64,000 bases of DNA, taken from the NCBI GenBank assembly GCA_018066245.1, contig JAGHRT010000010.1:1-64000 (forward strand), in the 5' to 3' direction. Below are positions 1-50,435 of this stretch, in pieces; positions within the stretch are counted from its first letter, which is position 1, and each line of letters starts with the position of its first letter. This DNA is from Candidatus Equimonas faecalis (GTDB lineage: Bacteria > Bacteroidota > Bacteroidia > Bacteroidales > Bacteroidaceae). The notes beneath the pieces are model-generated. The model worked only from the letters and a program-made list of their open reading frames with translations. It was not told the DNA's origin and made no database searches. The position numbers were made by a program, and so were the translations under genes.

Positions 1-31
1 GCTCTTGACTTTAGGATAGGGCAAAGAACTC

Positions 32-376
32 TTATCTTCGTTTGGTCCAGCTTCTGCCTTCATTTGTAGAGAAATATAGCCCCTTGCTTGTGCTAGCAAG
101 GAGTTCTCTTCCTCCATCAGCCAGGGAGATAAACTCTCCAGCGCTTGAGCCAGTGAAGCGTGAGGTCCAGGAGCGTCCTTCATTTGTAGAGTAGAAAATG
201 CCTTTGCTTGTTACGGCAAGGAGTTCCCTCCCATAGGCAAGCAAATCGCGGAATGTACCGGCACTTGTCCCCGAGTACCGCACAGTCCAAGAACGACCAT
301 CGTTGGTCGAAAATTCAATTTTGTTGCCGGCGCCTATTCTAATAAGCTCACGGCCATAAGAAATTAACTGTGGCAT
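32..376 (-). CDS. Small Asp-box (BNR-like) triple-repeat protein
   Basis: A 114-residue protein made almost entirely of three repeats of about 40 residues. Each has an Asp-box motif (STNDGRSW once, STNEGRSW twice), as in sialidase and photosystem-assembly beta-propellers. Three units are too few to close a propeller, so it may oligomerise or be a remnant. No signal peptide or membrane segment is visible. The repeats are also recognisable in the DNA, which suggests recent tandem duplication. It lies 57 nt downstream of the DUF262 gene on the same strand and may be the last gene of that operon. Function unknown. The fold assignment is fairly safe from the motif. Confidence 0.6.
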   Translation of the reverse strand: MPQLISYGRELIRIGAGNKIEFSTNDGRSWTVRYSGTSAGTFRDLLAYGRELLAVTSKGIFYSTNEGRSWTSRFTGSSAGEFISLADGGRELLASTSKGLYFSTNEGRSWTKRR

Positions 377-433
377 GATTTGTAAGTGTTAAAGTCGGTT
401 TAAGTTTACTGGAAGAACGATGCCATATTCATG

Positions 434-1462
434 CTATTGGGGGCTTTCATGAGAAGCGCAAAACAGCTCAAATATTCTATCAAAATCTTTTCTATTTTTT
501 ATTTCTCCATTACATAGTCTTGACAGATTGTTGAAACTCCTTTCAAGCGCAAGAGTGAAGTTCAGGATAAAGTCAATGCAACTTGGTTGGCCAAGTTCAG
601 AGTTGATTCTTTCGGTTGCATTTGATTCCCACAAAGAATTAAAGTACACTCTCAATGTATGCGTCAAGACTGCATCTTCATCTACGAAATCTTCGATGTC
701 TGAAATATGCCGGTAGATGTTTTCAAAGCGTGCTTTTACTTGTTCTATAAGCACATCTATTTCTATTGCATCCCCATAAATATGAATATTATGCATAAAC
801 TGCGCTTTAATGACTTCCAGATGAGAAGGTCTCTTTCCTCGGTTGTTCTGGAATATAAACATCTGTATGGCTTCTGCTTCACTTTTTACAATGTGGGTTG
901 TGCAAGAAGATGATGTAACGGCATTGAGTAATGCCTCTATTTTGTCCAGTTCCATAGAAGATAGCTTCTCTACAAAATAGTCATAGGCCGCTACAATGCG
1001 TTTCCCCGATGATGTTTCTATTCCATAATGATCTTTCTTTATCGTATCGATCACATAGTCACGAAAAAGCTGGTTGTCATAGTGTACAGTTGAGAATTTA
1101 TATGTGCTGCGCCTCTTGATCATATCTTCATACAAGTCACACTCATCTTCCGATAATTCCCTCAATTTTTTTAGTCGGTTGAACAAGGCACAGAGGAAAA
1201 TGATGATAGTTGTAAGTCGCTGCTGCCCGTCGATGATGGCATATACATTCTCATCCTTTTGCTCGTAGAGGAAGTGTCCGAAATAGTAAGGCGTTTCCAC
1301 CTCACTCTTCAGATAATCTTCAAGGTCAGCAAGGAAAGTGTTGACCTGCTTTTTTGAGTCGTTGTCCTTCTTGCCAGTTTCCCATGAAAAGGCTCTTTGG
1401 TAATCTGGAACGAAGATGCGATTTCCTCGCATCATTCCGCTGATGGTTGATGAAGCTTCCAT
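434..1462 (-). CDS. DUF262 (GmrSD N-domain-like) protein, short form
   Basis: A 342-residue protein with the DUF262 hallmarks: VPDYQRAFSW at 18-27, IIDGQQRLTTI with DGQQR at 78-82, and a later FIFQNNRGKRPS segment. In GmrSD-type IV restriction enzymes this ParB-like domain binds or hydrolyses nucleotide and is followed by a DUF1524 HNH nuclease domain. Here the protein stops before any HNH motif, so it is either a stand-alone DUF262 protein or a truncation. The stop lies just after a run of five C, but the alternative frame closes after only a dozen codons, so no hidden nuclease half was found. It is downstream of the exonuclease gene on the same strand (21 nt gap). A role in nucleic-acid defence is inferred from family and context. 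Confidence 0.75.
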   Translation of the reverse strand: MEASSTISGMMRGNRIFVPDYQRAFSWETGKKDNDSKKQVNTFLADLEDYLKSEVETPYYFGHFLYEQKDENVYAIIDGQQRLTTIIIFLCALFNRLKKLRELSEDECDLYEDMIKRRSTYKFSTVHYDNQLFRDYVIDTIKKDHYGIETSSGKRIVAAYDYFVEKLSSMELDKIEALLNAVTSSSCTTHIVKSEAEAIQMFIFQNNRGKRPSHLEVIKAQFMHNIHIYGDAIEIDVLIEQVKARFENIYRHISDIEDFVDEDAVLTHTLRVYFNSLWESNATERINSELGQPSCIDFILNFTLALERSFNNLSRLCNGEIKNRKDFDRIFELFCASHESPQ

Positions 1463-1483
1463 TTTGTTGTTTGTTGATAAAAA

Positions 1484-1972
1484 TTATAGAATATGTAATG
1501 CAATCGCCGCACAAGCCTCTGCATCCGCCAATGCGTGGTGATGATTCTCTAAATTATATCCACATCGTCCGGCTATGATGTCGAGGTGGTGACGGCCTTC
1601 TGGCCACACTTCTCTCGACTTCAGGAGGGTGCAATGGAACTCGTAGTCGGGATAGTCCATCTGATAGGTGCGGAAGACGGCTTTCAGGCAGTTTTCGTCA
1701 AATGCCTTGTTGTGAGCCACGAGTGGAAGTCCCTCTATGAGCGGTTCCACTTGTTTCCACACTTCAGGGAAGAGGGGAGCATCGTCGGTGTCTGCGGCCG
1801 TAAGCCCATGCACCTGGGTACACCAGTAGTTGTAGTAGTTGGGGGCTGGCTGAATGAGCGAATAGAACGTATCGACAATCTCTCCGTTCCGCACGATTAC
1901 TATGCCGACACTGCACACGCTGCTTCGTTCACAGTTGGCGGTCTCAAAATCGATTGCTGCAAAGTCTTTCAT
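1484..1972 (-). CDS. DEDDh-family 3'-5' exonuclease (DnaQ-like)
   Basis: A 162-residue, single-domain exonuclease of the DnaQ/RNase T superfamily. The metal-binding and catalytic residues are visible: Asp8 and Glu10 in AIDFETAN, Asp92 in AHNKAFDENCL, and His145 plus Asp150 in HHALADAEA, giving the full DEDDh set. It should remove nucleotides from 3' ends of DNA or RNA using two metal ions. Its start codon overlaps the stop of the upstream uracil-glycosylase-like gene by 4 nt (ATGA arrangement), implying translational coupling. It is too short to be a polymerase III epsilon subunit with its C-terminal tail. In this setting it is more likely an accessory nuclease than a housekeeping proofreader. 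Confidence 0.85.
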   Translation of the reverse strand: MKDFAAIDFETANCERSSVCSVGIVIVRNGEIVDTFYSLIQPAPNYYNYWCTQVHGLTAADTDDAPLFPEVWKQVEPLIEGLPLVAHNKAFDENCLKAVFRTYQMDYPDYEFHCTLLKSREVWPEGRHHLDIIAGRCGYNLENHHHALADAEACAAIALHIL

Positions 1973-3150
1973 AATTTTATATGCAACGTTTCTAATTGAT
2001 GAACCATATTATTTAGTTCATTAATGATGTTTAGTTTTATATCTTCTATATTTTTGCCATATTCTTTGTATTTCTTACATCCAATCCACGCATTATCAGA
2101 ATTGTCGAAATGAAATTTACCAACAAGAAGGTTTCTTATTTCTTCTGTGAACTGAGGTTGTACAGATAAGTCATTTGAATAAGCCTTTCCTTTAATTCCC
2201 TTATGCCTTATGTTAATTGAATCCTTGTCTGCTGTCGCTTCAAGACCATTGTAGAACTCAAAACGCTTTTGTTCGTTAGGTATTTTTGAATAATGCTTTG
2301 AAAGTAGCTGTATAACATCTGCTTGATTAATAGCTTGCGCATTGTTCTTGTTACAGTGTATAGATTTAATATTTTGAGTCATACACAACATTTTGATTTG
2401 GTTGTCATCAAATTGTTCATAACTTGTTGACAGCAAATAAGGCAGAACAGTTGCAATTAGCGTAATTTCCGCATTGCTTCTATAAGTTGGATGTGGCACT
2501 CCAATACATGTCCGACCATTTAACTTACCAATAAAAATATTTTCAGCAACATTTTTGAATTCAAAATCACAGATTCCCAGTTTTGATAATCTTGACAACC
2601 TTCCGAAACATGCTTTTCCACTAAGGAAAACAATAGTCTCAGGTGATGTTATATCAATAAGTCGTAATGTATCTGGCAATGTTTTACAAAGTAGTTCGTT
2701 GCTAATTGCATTTGCTTTAGGAGTGTTGAAGAATGAGGCGTTTGTAACCAATATGCCATCATCTTCATCAAGCACTTTTAGAAGTGAAGTGTTTGCAAAG
2801 TACCGTCTTAAACCACTCCAGTATTTCCATTTCGTATGTAATTCCCACGAAGAAGGTTCTCCGTCGGCATGGCAATAGTTTCCTTTTAAAATGTGATTTG
2901 GGGAATGAATATCCTCGAACAAGTAGCTCCAGTTCTGGTTTTGACATTGGTCTGAAAAGGAACCTGTAGAGCCTGGGTTAATACCAATAATGCATAGTTT
3001 TGGACGACCTGTCAATTTGGTCAAATCAGATTGGGTATAAAAAGCAAAGTCTGCATTATTGCAAGGATCTGAGGCTAAGCAAATGTAATTCGACATTGTC
3101 GTCACAGCCCAATCATATAGCTGTTTCTGCAAATCAAAGTTGTTTGTCAT
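1969..3150 (-). CDS. Uracil-DNA-glycosylase-superfamily-like protein with C-terminal extension
   Basis: A 393-residue protein whose first ~250 residues resemble the UDG fold: GINPG at 56-60 matches the active-site motif region, LVTNASFF at 134-141 fits the central strand, and HPTYRS at 220-225 resembles the HPS minor-groove loop. The remaining ~140 residues have no family I recognise. Classical UDGs are about 230 residues, so the extension is unusual. The gene is markedly AT-rich compared with most of the window. It starts 1 nt after the WYL gene stop and overlaps the exonuclease gene by 4 nt, so the three are almost certainly one transcript. Glycosylase activity is inferred from motifs only; a non-catalytic nucleic-acid sensor is also possible. 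Confidence 0.55.
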   Translation of the reverse strand: MTNNFDLQKQLYDWAVTTMSNYICLASDPCNNADFAFYTQSDLTKLTGRPKLCIIGINPGSTGSFSDQCQNQNWSYLFEDIHSPNHILKGNYCHADGEPSSWELHTKWKYWSGLRRYFANTSLLKVLDEDDGILVTNASFFNTPKANAISNELLCKTLPDTLRLIDITSPETIVFLSGKACFGRLSRLSKLGICDFEFKNVAENIFIGKLNGRTCIGVPHPTYRSNAEITLIATVLPYLLSTSYEQFDDNQIKMLCMTQNIKSIHCNKNNAQAINQADVIQLLSKHYSKIPNEQKRFEFYNGLEATADKDSINIRHKGIKGKAYSNDLSVQPQFTEEIRNLLVGKFHFDNSDNAWIGCKKYKEYGKNIEDIKLNIINELNNMVHQLETLHIKL

Positions 3151-3151
3151 T

Positions 3152-4063
3152 TTAGTCTGTTTTATATTTATTCCACATTCGTTTAATTTTTCCAGCTATT
3201 TCCTTACGGAGCCATATTGGTTTAAGCACTTCCACATCTTCACCATTCCAAAGAATCTCCTGCTGGAAGTCAAAGGTGGGACGGATGTTGAGCTCGAAGA
3301 TGCTGTATTCGTCGTTCTGCTCCGTTTCACGCTGTGATGAGTGCAGGGGGAGGTCTCTCAGATAGTTGGCTTGTCCGGCACTTACCTTCAACACCACATG
3401 TTCAACATTCGTTCCGTCTCCTGCCATGATGCCATAGCAGTCCTTGAAGAAGCATTGCCCGTCAAAATCATCGGGATATTTGAATGTACGTTCCGACTTC
3501 CTGAGCTCAGACATCCTGTCAAGGGAATAGACCAGTACGGCATTTGCACCAAGCATCTTCCCGACCATATACCAACGCTGGCGGAAGATCTTCACGCAGT
3601 ATGGCTCTACGCAATGCCGGCGGTAGTCATCACGCCAATAATTGTAATAGGTGAAATGTATGAGACGGTTCTTCTTCATCGCGTCTATTATGGACTGCAG
3701 GTGTTCTCTTCCCGAAGGTACATCTTCAAGAAGAATGCGGTCGCTGAGACTTCGGTTCTCCAGCAGGAGGTTGCTCGTACTGATGGTGTTCAATAGCCAT
3801 GAGCGCATTCCTCCCTTGGTTATCACGTCTTCGTTCTCGATGTAATAGCGGTACTCCCCGCGCTTTTCGTTCTCGATAATCAAGCCGAACATCTCTTCCA
3901 CGGCTATACGCCATTTGTGGAACGTGCGCAGGGGAAGTTCAACGCCTTCGCTGAAGTCTTCGTCGTCCAGCCATTTGCGGTTGATTTCCTCATACAAAAT
4001 TTTATGCGCCCGGTAGATGGTTTCCACCAACCATACATACTTATTGATAATGTTCATTGCCAT
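3152..4063 (-). CDS. WYL-domain transcriptional regulator
   Basis: A 303-residue protein with an N-terminal winged-helix-like region (about 1-110), a WYL domain around 130-220 (IHFTYYNYW, then RQRWYMVGKM) and a C-terminal WCX-like extension ending in a basic helix. WYL proteins sense ligands, probably nucleic acid or nucleotides, and many (BrxR, CapW) repress phage-defence operons. Here it is the first gene of a compact minus-strand operon, the position expected of an autoregulator. The start at 4063 is supported by a promoter-like -7 element about 28 nt upstream; an internal Met at residue 3 is an equally possible start. Confidence 0.85.
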   Translation of the reverse strand: MAMNIINKYVWLVETIYRAHKILYEEINRKWLDDEDFSEGVELPLRTFHKWRIAVEEMFGLIIENEKRGEYRYYIENEDVITKGGMRSWLLNTISTSNLLLENRSLSDRILLEDVPSGREHLQSIIDAMKKNRLIHFTYYNYWRDDYRRHCVEPYCVKIFRQRWYMVGKMLGANAVLVYSLDRMSELRKSERTFKYPDDFDGQCFFKDCYGIMAGDGTNVEHVVLKVSAGQANYLRDLPLHSSQRETEQNDEYSIFELNIRPTFDFQQEILWNGEDVEVLKPIWLRKEIAGKIKRMWNKYKTD

Positions 4064-4090
4064 AATCGTACTGTTCTGTCGGTTACGAAT

Positions 4091-4099
4091 GCAAAATTA
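4091..4099 (-). promoter_or_regulatory. Putative -7 element of the WYL operon
   Basis: On the minus strand this reads TAATTTTGC, matching the Bacteroidetes -7 consensus TAnnTTTG. No good TTTG element is present 20 nt upstream. It would start transcription about 20 nt before the WYL gene. Confidence 0.4.
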
Positions 4100-4162
4100 C
4101 TTCAAAGGTGTGCCGAATGAGGGCATTGCTTTCGGGAAAAATGATTTTATTTTATAGGAAAG

Positions 4163-4196
4163 CGCCCCCGAAAGTTAGCGCTTGCTCTCGGAGGCG
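4163..4196 (-). terminator. Hairpin downstream of purL
   Basis: CGCCCCCGA at 4163-4171 pairs with TCGGAGGCG at 4188-4196 with one mismatch. On the minus strand an A/T-rich stretch follows. The position fits termination of purL transcripts before the WYL operon. Confidence 0.4.
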
Positions 4197-4203
4197 TGCT
4201 ATA

Positions 4204-4284
4204 TGCAAATTCGCAAATGGGTAAATTGGCAAATTCGCAAATGGGGGAATGGGGTAATTTGCTAATTCGTTAATTTGCTAATTT
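4204..4284. repeat. AT-rich AATTTGC/AATTCGC short-unit repeat array
   Basis: Irregular tandem units of the type GCAAATTCGCAAATGGG, giving way to GCTAATTCGTTAATTTGC. The same vocabulary recurs at 50436-50606 and near 54830. The array overlaps the 3' end of purL and contributes its last codons and stop. Confidence 0.7.
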
Positions 4285-7200
4285 CTGATGCTCCTGACAC
4301 CAGCGGCGGGCGTTGGTGAAGGCTTCAAGCCACGGCGTACACTCGGCCTCGGGGCAGGGATAGTAGGGATTCTGCCACGGGAGGAAGGCACGCTCCAAGT
4401 GGGGCATCATGGCCAGATGGCGACCGTCGGGAGTGCAGATGCCGGCGGTGGCGAAGTCGGAGCCGTTGGGGCAGCCGGGGTACTGGTCGTAGGTGTAGCG
4501 GAGGACGATGTTGTAATCGGCCTCGGTGCCGGGGAGGGAGAACTTGCCCTCGCCGTGGGCCACCCAGATGCCGAGTTTGCTGCCGGAGAGCGGACCGAAC
4601 ATCACGCTGCCGTTCTCGGGGATGGTGACGCCGAGGAACTGCGACTCAAACTTGTGCGAAGTGTTGTGGATCATCTTGGCTTTGGCCTCGCCGGCGGTGG
4701 TGCCTACCAGTCCGAGTTCCACCATCAGCTGGCAGCCGTTGCAGACACCGAGGGAGAGGGTGTCGGGGCGGCTGTAGAAGCGGTCGAGGGTGGCCTTGGC
4801 TTTCGGGTTGTAGAGGAAGGCGCCGGCCCAGCCCTTGGCAGAGCCGAGGACGTCGGAGTTGGAGAAGCCGCCGCAGAAGACTATCATCTGTATGTCGTCC
4901 AGCGTTTCGCGGCCCGTGGTGAGGTCGGTCATGGTTACGTCCTTCACGTCGAAGCCGGCCAGATGGAGGGCATAGGCCATCTCCCTCTCGCCGTTGGTGC
5001 CCTTCTCGCGGATGATGGCGGCACGCACGCCGCTCTTGGTGCGGCGGTCGGGGTTGGCCCCGAGGTCGGCCAGACGGCCGGTGAAGGCAGCGGGCAGGCT
5101 GTATTGCAAGGGTTGCTGCTTATAGTTCTTATAGCGCTCGTCGGCCTGCCCATTGAAGGACTGCTTGCGGTCGAGGAGCCAAGAGGTTTCGTACCACACG
5201 TCGCGGAGACCCTCTATATCTTCCTTAAAGGGAGACTTTCCGTCAGGGAAGGTAATGTTGATGACGCGCTCGGAGGCGGGTTCGCCGATTTGCACGGCGA
5301 GGACGCCGTGCTCGTCGAGGATTTCGGCGAAGCGGTCGGTGTCGCGCACCTGCACCACCACGCCCGGGTTCTCGGCGAAGAGCAACTTGGCAGGGTCGGT
5401 CTCGGCAAAGGCGGAGAGGTCGATGTTCAGGCCGCCCTCGGTGTTGGCGAAGCACATTTCGAGGAGCGCGGTAATAAGGCCGCCGGCGCTGATGTCGTGG
5501 CCCGCCACAATCACGCCTTCCTTCACGCACTGCTGTACGGCCTGGAAGGCTGCGCGGAAATAGTCGGGGTCGGCCACGGTGGGTACGTCGCTGCCCACAC
5601 GCCCCTGACTCTGCGCCCAAGCGCTTCCGCCGAGGCGCAGATCGTCGCAGGAGAAGTCAATATGGTAGAGCAGGCCTTCGGACTGAAGGGGAGTGCTGAC
5701 CGTGAGCTTTACGTCGCTCACCTCGCCGCCGGCGCTGACAATCACGGTGCCCGGAGAAATGATTTTTTCGCCGCCCGGATATTGCTGGCTCAGGCTGAGG
5801 GAGTCCTTGCCCGTGGGGACATTGACGCCTATGGCACAGCAGAAGTCGGACAGGGCCTCCACGGCGGCATACAGGCGGGCATCCTCGCCCTTCTGGCTGC
5901 GGCAGGGCCACATCCAGTTGGCCGACAGGCTCACGCTGTCCATACCCTCGCTGAGCGGTGCCCACACGAGGTTGGTGAGGGCTTCGGCCACGGAAAGCAC
6001 GGAACCCTTGGCAGGGTCGGCCAGTCCGGCCTGCGGCGCATGGCCTATGGCGGTGGCTATGCCCGCCTTGCCCCGATAGTCGAGAGCCACCACGCCGCAG
6101 TCGTTCAGCGGCAGCTGGAGCGGGCCGGCAGTTTGCTGGTGGGCCACCTTTCCCGTTACGGAGCGGTCCACCTTGTTGGTAAGCCAGTCCTTGCAGGCCA
6201 CGGCTTCGAGGCGCAGCACGGCTTCCAACTGCTTCCGGAGGTCGGAGGAGCCGGCCGTGGGGTCGGCATAGCGGCGCTCCACGGTATCGTCGGTCATCAC
6301 GGTCTTAGGACTGTGGCCGAACATCTGGCTGACATCGAGGTCGAAGGGGCGGCAGCCGTCGCCCTGCTGGAAGGCAAAGTGGGCATCGCCCGTACACTCG
6401 CCCACCACATAGAGCGGTGCGCGTTCACGCTCGGCAATCTGGCGCACATGGTCTATATGCTTCTCGTCGATGAGCAGGCCCATGCGCTCCTGGCTCTCGT
6501 TGGCTATGATTTCCTTGGCGCTGAGGGTGGGGTCGCCCACGGGGAGCTGTGTCATGTCAATCAGGCCGCCGCACTCCTCCACCAATTCGGAGAGGCAATT
6601 GACGTGGCCTGCTGATCCGTGGTCGTGGATGCTGACCACAGGATTGACCTCCTCTTCGCACAGGGCCCGCACCAGGTTGTTGGCACGCTTCTGCATCTCG
6701 GGATTGGCCCTTTGCACGGCATTCAGCTCAATGCCCGAACTGTAGCGACCGGTATCTACCGAGCTCACGGAGCCGCCTCCGAGGCCGATGCGGTAGTTGT
6801 CGCCGCCCACCACGACGACCTTGTTGCCCTTCTGGGGGGTGCCCTTCAGGCAGTCGCGCTTTGTGCCGTAGCCCACGCCGCCGGCGAGCATGATGACCTT
6901 GTCGTAGCCATACTTCTCGCCGTTTTCCTGATGCTCAAAGGTGAGCACGGAGCCGGCAATGAGGGGCTGGCCGAACTTGTTGCCGAAGTCGCTGGCTCCG
7001 TTGCTGGCCTTGGTGAGGATTTGCTGCGGAGTCTGATAGAGCCACTGGCGGACGGGCAGCACTTGCTCCCAGATGCCGGGTGTTTCGCGCAGGCGGGGAT
7101 AGCTTGTCATATAGACAGCCGTTCCTGCCAGCGGCCAGGAGCCCACGCCGCCGCCCATGCGGTCGCGTATTTCGCCGCCGGTGCCGGTGGAGGCTCCGTT

Positions 7201-50031: not shown

Positions 50032-50430
50032 GGGGCCGACTGGATTTGACAGCGGGCCGGACGTATGAGTAAGCATGCAGTGCGGGCGTGAACGGGCACT
50101 TAAATCTCGGTTCTCAACAATTTAACTGGCAACAACAGCTATGCTCTCGCTGCCTAACCGAAGTACAGTAGGTTAGCTTCATCCCCGCTCCAGGAGTAGG
50201 GACGAGACGTCGCCCAAGCGCCCTTTTCCCGAGGCGGCTTGAACCGGCGGCGCAGATAAATCGGGAATAGCCAGCGGCCCGTCTCCGGCCTAAGGCGAAG
50301 CTCCTATGGAGACTAAGGCAGAGGTTGGTGGCTCTGGTCTTGCCGCTGCACGAAAAACCAGTCAGAGATAAGCATGTAGAAAGCTTGTGCTTTCCCCGTT
50401 TGGACGAGGGTTCGATTCCCTCCGGCTCCA
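50032..50430 (+). ncRNA. ssrA: Transfer-messenger RNA (tmRNA)
   Basis: A one-piece tmRNA. The 5' end GGGGCCGACUGGAUUUGACAG pairs with the 3' CGGCUCC (one G-U), and GGTTCGATTCCCTCC forms the T arm. The tag frame starts at GGC 50128 and reads GNNSYALAA then TAA (50155-50157). CCA is not encoded: the gene ends CGGCTCCA then CA, so the end would be added. It rescues stalled ribosomes with SmpB and marks peptides for degradation. Confidence 0.95.
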
Positions 50431-50435
50431 CATTA

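Follow-up and report, generated by a model that had tools for sequence, protein, structure and literature searches.

We analysed a window of 64,000 nucleotides of Candidatus Equimonas faecalis DNA (contig JAGHRT010000010.1 of assembly GCA_018066245.1, positions 1 to 64,000 of the forward strand) and characterized a locus of four minus-strand genes at positions 434–4063, which encode a WYL regulator, a protein resembling uracil-DNA glycosylases (UDG-like), a DEDDh exonuclease and a GmrSD-like protein. The window starts at the end of its contig (C44), with the DNA past base 1 unseen. The first gene of the operon (3152–4063) encodes a 303-aa WYL-WCX transcriptional regulator (Pfam: WYL, E 3.1e-14; WCX, E 1.8e-12; no helix-turn-helix domain was scored in this protein by Pfam), relatives of which with 55–64% identity head sister islands. 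The following genes encode a 393-aa UDG-superfamily, putatively Brig-like protein (1969–3150), a 162-aa DEDDh 3'-5' exonuclease (1484–1972; Pfam RNase_T/DEDDh, E 9.7e-21), which resembles the PolC-type and epsilon proofreading exonucleases, and a shortened 342-aa GmrSD-like protein (434–1462; GmrSD_N, which is DUF262, E 5.5e-28). Between successive genes there is first a 1-nt gap, then a 4-nt overlap and last a 21-nt gap, in agreement with an earlier note made from the sequence alone, which had proposed the four genes as an undescribed defence operon. That note had also called them AT-richer than their flanks; this was clearly so for the effector-type UDG-like (35% GC) and GmrSD-like (40%) genes and mildly so for WYL (47%) and DEDDh (52%), compared with 63% in the neighbouring purL. 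The reading frames of the WYL, UDG-like and DEDDh genes are intact. In contrast to type IV GmrSD relatives, the best of which is a 564-aa protein of the same genus with both GmrSD_N and GmrSD_C, the window copy has GmrSD_N alone, and a search of window positions 1–5000 found no trace of a C-terminal part. The gene has lost its nuclease domain and is probably nuclease-dead. Flanks of purL read in 6 same-genus genomes (L231–L236, 11–12 kb each; fetched loci carry L numbers) contained no WYL, UDG-like or DEDDh gene and had a different gene after purL, which ruled out housekeeping synteny downstream of purL (the gene itself was present in 18 of the 20 genomes searched).

The UDG-like protein comprises a glycosylase-like domain (residues ~1–240) and a family-specific C-terminal domain (~265–393). 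The active-site motifs of the UDG superfamily are a GxxPG-type motif A, a recognition Asn and an HP or NP motif C; here they correspond to G56INPG60, N137 and H220-P221, and GINPG is shared with E. coli Mug. An alignment of the window protein with 11 relatives had 11 columns invariant in all 12 sequences, including G56, I57, N58, G60 and N137; P59 and H220 were near-invariant, and motifs A and C and N137 were kept also in short forms without the C-terminal domain. Among the relatives, that of L171 scored best against the Pfam family PF03167 (24.1 bits; cut-off 24.3). The UDG-like profile aligned with the Mug profile over its C-terminal half only (E 0.006, probability 6%), and a search of PDB chains gave 11 weak matches, with T. 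maritima UDG first (E 0.09), S. tokodaii UDG fifth (E 0.33) and unrelated chains in between (best UDG matches, E 0.09 and 0.1). Fold comparison used an AlphaFold2 model from the 12-sequence alignment (mean pLDDT 71.8, pTM 0.62). The best 50 of 420 Foldseek matches all belonged to the UDG superfamily (family-4 UDG, UdgX, TDG and SMUG1), headed by 4zbx, the S. tokodaii UDG (prob 1.00, E 2.4e-3), and structure prediction supported the UDG-like label of the earlier note, with a modest best E value. The ratio of nonsynonymous to synonymous substitution rates (dN/dS) between the window gene and that of L180 was 0.125 at a dS of 0.88, a sign of purifying selection. Together, the predicted fold and the motifs fit a glycosylase. 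The C-terminal domain weakly matches DpdH (E 0.0096) and was found otherwise only in L173_10, a 353-aa protein (L173 10568–11629) that joins it (34% identity) to another N-terminal domain. Its presence in PDDEXK_4 effectors was ruled out by a profile comparison that gave no match.

A scan of 84,980 species' genomes with the UDG-like alignment confirmed 11 loci, and a WYL gene lay in the fetched flank of 7 of them (L180–L183, L187, L189 and L190), compared with an expectation of 0.19 based on how many WYL genes those genomes have and assuming 20-kb flanks, several loci having less. Within the genus, 4 of 58 genomes (own included) had UDG-like matches. The alignment had no match in viral_contigs, nor did the single protein in plasmids. 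The proposal that the gene set recurs elsewhere was borne out in that L180, L181, L171 and L183 carry WYL, DEDDh and UDG-like genes. L180, from a Paludibacteraceae metagenome-assembled genome (MAG), has WYL, UDG and DEDDh in the window order (82% identity for UDG, 64% for WYL) and retains the 4-nt UDG-DEDDh overlap; its UDG has no C-terminal domain and its DEDDh gene is frameshifted. L181 (Bacteroides) reads WYL-DEDDh-GmrSD-GmrSD-UDG, and the 7.9-kb record MT837679.1 (L171) and its near copy L183 hold WYL, DEDDh, GmrSD and UDG-like genes together. In L189 (Pedobacter) the DEDDh and UDG-like genes overlap by 4 nt, and in Epilithonimonas and Kaistella a single gene separates the UDG-like gene from the WYL gene that comes after it. 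MT837679.1 was deposited as a phage and L183 is a MAG contig labelled Erysipelotrichaceae; the two islands are near-identical and of Bacteroidales type, and both labels look doubtful.

To describe the sister islands, we used 20 loci chosen through WYL (L035–L054) and 80 taken from the DEDDh match list in rank order (L085–L164), with nine places listed ahead of the final pick left out, one of which (G149:C16) has a WYL match directly upstream of DEDDh. Twenty WYL-relative regions showed a recurrent layout in which WYL is followed by as many as three variable genes, then by DEDDh if there is one, by variable effectors, frequently with PLD after them, and by accessory genes; a 170-aa PLD protein occurred in 7 of the 20 such regions of the family. 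The Pfam-named effectors include GmrSD, an McrBC pair, an Mrr nuclease, PDDEXK_4 nucleases and RhuM/Fic proteins, and in PADLOC one PDDEXK_4 protein resembles PDC-S26. Type IV or UDG cargo lay near DEDDh on the same strand in 16 of 20 genes with WYL and in 2 of 77 without (Fisher p 8e-13), as counted on stop-to-stop open reading frames (standard calling missed DEDDh in 13 of the 80 loci) with cargo models built from the islands themselves and with 13 of the 20 WYL-positive loci chosen through WYL. By selection route, cargo was found at 3 of 3 DEDDh-picked loci with WYL and 2 of 77 without, at 9 of 13 WYL-picked and 3 of 3 UDG-picked loci, and at the window (1 of 1). GmrSD_N was the commonest cargo (beside 11 of the 20 WYL-linked DEDDh genes), and PLD lay near DEDDh in 10 of 20 with WYL and 1 of 77 without. 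A second UDG-superfamily protein was present in three WYL islands (L036 7917–8651, L047 7523–8221 and L051 6715–7395; PF03167 E 8e-5 to 0.004, below the cut-off), with GRA(T/N)N as motif A and EHP as motif C. A small-profile match, L044_3, has no such motifs and was unconvincing as a further member; it is within the 4 of 20 counted for UDG, and L044 also has PDDEXK_4, so the 16 of 20 is unaffected. One WYL island contains a peptidyl-arginine deiminase family protein of Porphyromonas type (L043 4698–5534).

These data show that the locus is one instance of a modular Bacteroidales island in which WYL and DEDDh frame swappable effectors. The earlier idea of a defence operon survives in that its gene types co-occur elsewhere, near defence genes and in sister islands rich in restriction genes; that of a dedicated four-gene set was abandoned, as UDG-like genes are rare (7 of 301 family genomes), 77 of the 97 DEDDh genes examined are without WYL, and the DUF262 protein has no nuclease half. 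The varied composition of the sister islands likewise rules out the four genes as one fixed system. The swappable effectors are mostly modification-dependent nucleases (GmrSD, McrBC, Mrr and PDDEXK_4), and these or second UDG-type proteins slot into a WYL or WYL-DEDDh frame; the common theme would therefore be attack on modified DNA.

The DEDDh gene itself was found in 187 of 301 family genomes. On a tree of 95 of the 97 genes (after a length filter), WYL linkage required 16 changes compared with a shuffled mean of 17.5, and 82 of 500 shuffles were as low. In one genus, DEDDh stands alone in L106 and L139 where L036 has an island around it. Because of this and because WYL-linked DEDDh genes form no single clade, it appears that islands are gained and lost around DEDDh or that DEDDh outlasts them. 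A 114-aa Asp-box (BNR) repeat protein encoded beyond the GmrSD-like gene (32–376, minus strand) is a possible accessory product; 114–115-aa proteins with 65–70% identity to it recur beside DEDDh in L118, L132, L224 and L225, and the last two share the order BNR-like, 483–485-aa protein, DEDDh and GmrSD.

Many island WYL genes share in their upstream regions a palindrome whose 10-nt arms flank a 7-nt spacer, with a TAnnTTTG box directly after it. In the window, the 27-bp palindrome AAGCAATGCC-N7-GGCACACCTT (4105–4131, minus strand) precedes TAATTTTGC (4091–4099, minus strand), a candidate promoter box that we take to fit the Bacteroidales -7 consensus and that has an equivalent after most sister sites. 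A matrix from 11 training sites was applied to 22 other WYL upstream regions, and in 8 of them a site ranked in the top 1.5% of 1741 control upstreams, which may include neighbours of true sites. The held-out scores were 23.3 bits for the window, 25.1 for L171 and L183, 20.5 for L180 and 29.5 for L108; L047, L051 and L101 were also among the 8. A wider scan of the fetched loci placed sites farther upstream in L046 and L052, and at a threshold of at least 17 bits there were 45 sites in 1.95 Mb, training sites included, compared with 1.0 in Markov shuffles; the near copies L171 and L183 were counted separately here and in the cargo counts. Perfect or near-perfect palindromes also stand ahead of internal modules: in L043, L045 and L046 the site follows PLD, in L047 and L051 it follows the second UDG and in L048 PDDEXK_4, and in most cases a TTTG box comes ~8 nt later. 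In L183 and L171, where the UDG-like gene is transcribed separately, an 18.8-bit palindrome lacking a clear box lies before that gene. The strict pattern gave 15 sites in 13 of the 301 family genomes and its reversed control 1; by our reading, 12 of the 15 lay in island-type surroundings (two recognised by likeness to L175 alone) and those of G219, G333 and G120 did not. The window palindrome is the sole exact match in its own genome, and the exact match alone counts, given 22 matches at up to two mismatches compared with 10 for the reversed pattern. Three matches in viral_contigs sit within open reading frames of unrelated contigs, and L105 has a palindrome and a WYL tail with no WYL gene. 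We prefer to read the palindrome as a putative WYL operator over a terminator or a recombination site because most sites have a TTTG box behind them at a nearly fixed distance, although no clear box follows the sites in L148 and before the UDG-like gene of L183. In L175 (G334:C32), genes near a partial UDG-like gene encode a DnaB-like helicase, an AAA ATPase, whose gene has a palindrome at its start, and a PHP-domain paralogue of DNA polymerase III alpha. Short AT-rich aatttgc-like units are repeated at window positions 4190–4290, between purL and the WYL promoter.

We compared the locus with known systems. The UDG-like protein resembles Brig1–3 as a UDG-superfamily protein amid defence genes, as presented in passages of PMC11078745 and PMC13160076. 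The S. tokodaii UDG, its best structural match, was also the best match reported for Brig1 by its authors (PMC11078745, in part), and the Asn-Pro of its motif A (GINPG) parallels N50 and P51, named in the Brig3 pocket. In contrast to the Brig proteins, it seems to have Asn at the position where S. tokodaii UDG has N82, Brig1 E147 and Brig3 D127 according to passages of the same two papers, the likeness being one of motifs and fold. It further differs in its extra C-terminal domain, its WYL and DEDDh linkage and its Bacteroidales host, a group unnamed in the passages of PMC11078745 on Brig1 homologues. N137 seems, by motif alignment, to occupy the base-recognition position, and because this would place Asn where Brig1 and Brig3 have Glu and Asp, we predict uracil- or thymine-type substrates (deoxyuridine, hydroxymethyluracil or hypermodified T) rather than hydroxymethylcytosine. 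Like BrxR-type WYL regulators, which passages of PMC9122601 place beside GmrSD-family type IV restriction genes, sister copies of the window WYL adjoin restriction genes. The window WYL differs from the BrxR type in belonging to a Bacteroidales WYL-WCX family, with the palindrome, a candidate operator by sequence, repeated before internal modules and with DEDDh and PLD linkage rather than BREX. The window DEDDh matches positions 4–164 of PDC-S48 (E 1.1e-30), a PADLOC candidate defined as DEDDh plus a C-terminal region (411–512 positions), but the 162-aa protein has no counterpart to the remainder of the 411-position model. Sister islands encode a 170-aa PLD protein with a match to DrmC of DISARM (2e-10); other DISARM genes were not seen among the Pfam-named cargo, no search being aimed at them.

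We infer a defence role for the locus, in which phage bases that carry a modification would likely be excised in Brig-like fashion and the DNA then attacked by the exonuclease. The WYL-WCX protein would repress the operon by binding the palindrome that lies directly upstream of its -7 box, and upon infection a ligand would relieve this repression. The UDG-like protein, as its fold, its motifs and the Brig precedent suggest, would then flip out and excise a modified phage base, leaving abasic sites, and the translationally coupled DEDDh exonuclease would degrade the DNA 3'-5', starting at the nicks or ends so created. Abasic sites may be enough by themselves, with DEDDh only adding to the effect, because Brig1 immunity did not require the host apurinic/apyrimidinic endonucleases tested (PMC11078745, in part). 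Base excision followed by 3'-5' degradation, as put forward in the earlier note, is a reasonable proposal for the function of the locus.

On balance we consider it probable that the locus serves as an anti-phage island of the Bacteroidales, modular and under WYL control. Several results weigh against this. The UDG-like protein scored 17.0 bits against PF03167 (E 0.0064), under the cut-off; its model is moderate, with pLDDT below 50 at residues 59–61 near motif A and ~40–72 per ten residues from residue 261 on; and Foldseek gave no match at E 1e-3 or better. The gene is rare: the 7 of 301 family genomes (own included) were counted at E 1e-3, and at E 1e-8 the window's own was the only one of 395 phylum genomes with a match. 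Four of the 11 UDG-like loci show no WYL (L184, L186 and L188 among them lie on short or cut contigs), and the UDG-like gene of L171, L182 and L183 lies on the opposite strand, 2–4 kb from WYL. A separate clade of WYL-linked DEDDh genes was not seen on the tree, 14 of the 22 held-out WYL upstreams, mostly more distant, have no good palindrome within 150 nt, and no PLD was seen in the window, whose end coincides with that of the contig. The origin of the cargo models and the choice of loci given above count on the same side.

Another reading, which we regard as unlikely, is a stress-induced DNA repair operon in which a PafBC-like WYL-WCX protein controls a uracil glycosylase and a proofreading-type exonuclease for host base excision repair. 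PafBC, described in passages of PMC9122601, would be the model of such a DNA-damage-type regulator, and the WCX domain, the repair UDGs among the fold matches and the wide occurrence of DEDDh in the family, often alone, agree with such an operon; however, the UDG-like gene is patchy and rare, its partners in sister islands are restriction nucleases and the cargo is AT-rich. Motifs A and C and N137 are conserved even in the short forms, which makes it still less likely that the UDG-like protein is no glycosylase, being instead a reader of modified DNA, or acting on host DNA to abort infection, while DEDDh or other nucleases cut; its weak sequence score, the low model confidence at the motif A loop and an added C-terminal domain without assigned role, confined to this family and L173_10, would be compatible with that. 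A decaying island, in which the GmrSD-like effector is broken and the WYL, UDG-like and DEDDh genes are residual without a defence role in this strain, is highly improbable given the intact frames and the dN/dS of the UDG-like gene, despite the shortened GmrSD-like gene, the state of L180 and remnants such as L105.

Elsewhere in the window, a tmRNA gene (50032–50431) encodes the tag peptide GNNSYALAA. The same genome has another WYL paralogue (L178 8912–11395; G000:C40) after an AT-rich 523-aa DUF723/CapR-like gene.

Returning to the anti-phage island, we found no WYL-DEDDh-UDG island in the parts of the full-text literature that were searched, including PMC11078745, PMC13160076, PMC9122601, PMC7641849, PMC11090510, PMC12839542 and PMC4012209, with subscription papers mostly outside it. 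We rate as new the palindrome before island WYL genes and internal modules, which was not searched for in print, and the putative Brig-like excision inside a WYL-regulated, type IV-rich island. We tentatively suggest that these islands form an undescribed Bacteroidales immune-island class, in which one WYL repressor would act on a 27-bp palindrome at several promoters and a WYL-DEDDh(-PLD) frame would hold exchangeable effectors, one of them a Brig-like glycosylase family that has its own C-terminal domain, would attack uracil- or thymine-type phage bases and would pass abasic DNA to the exonuclease. Base-excision immunity so far consists of a few Brig enzymes. If our reading is true, a glycosylase paired with a dedicated exonuclease under a shared switch would bring such immunity to a major gut phylum, Asn as opposed to Glu or Asp at the base-recognition position would provide a rule for the phage bases attacked, and the shared operator would let sister defence modules be found by a DNA pattern.

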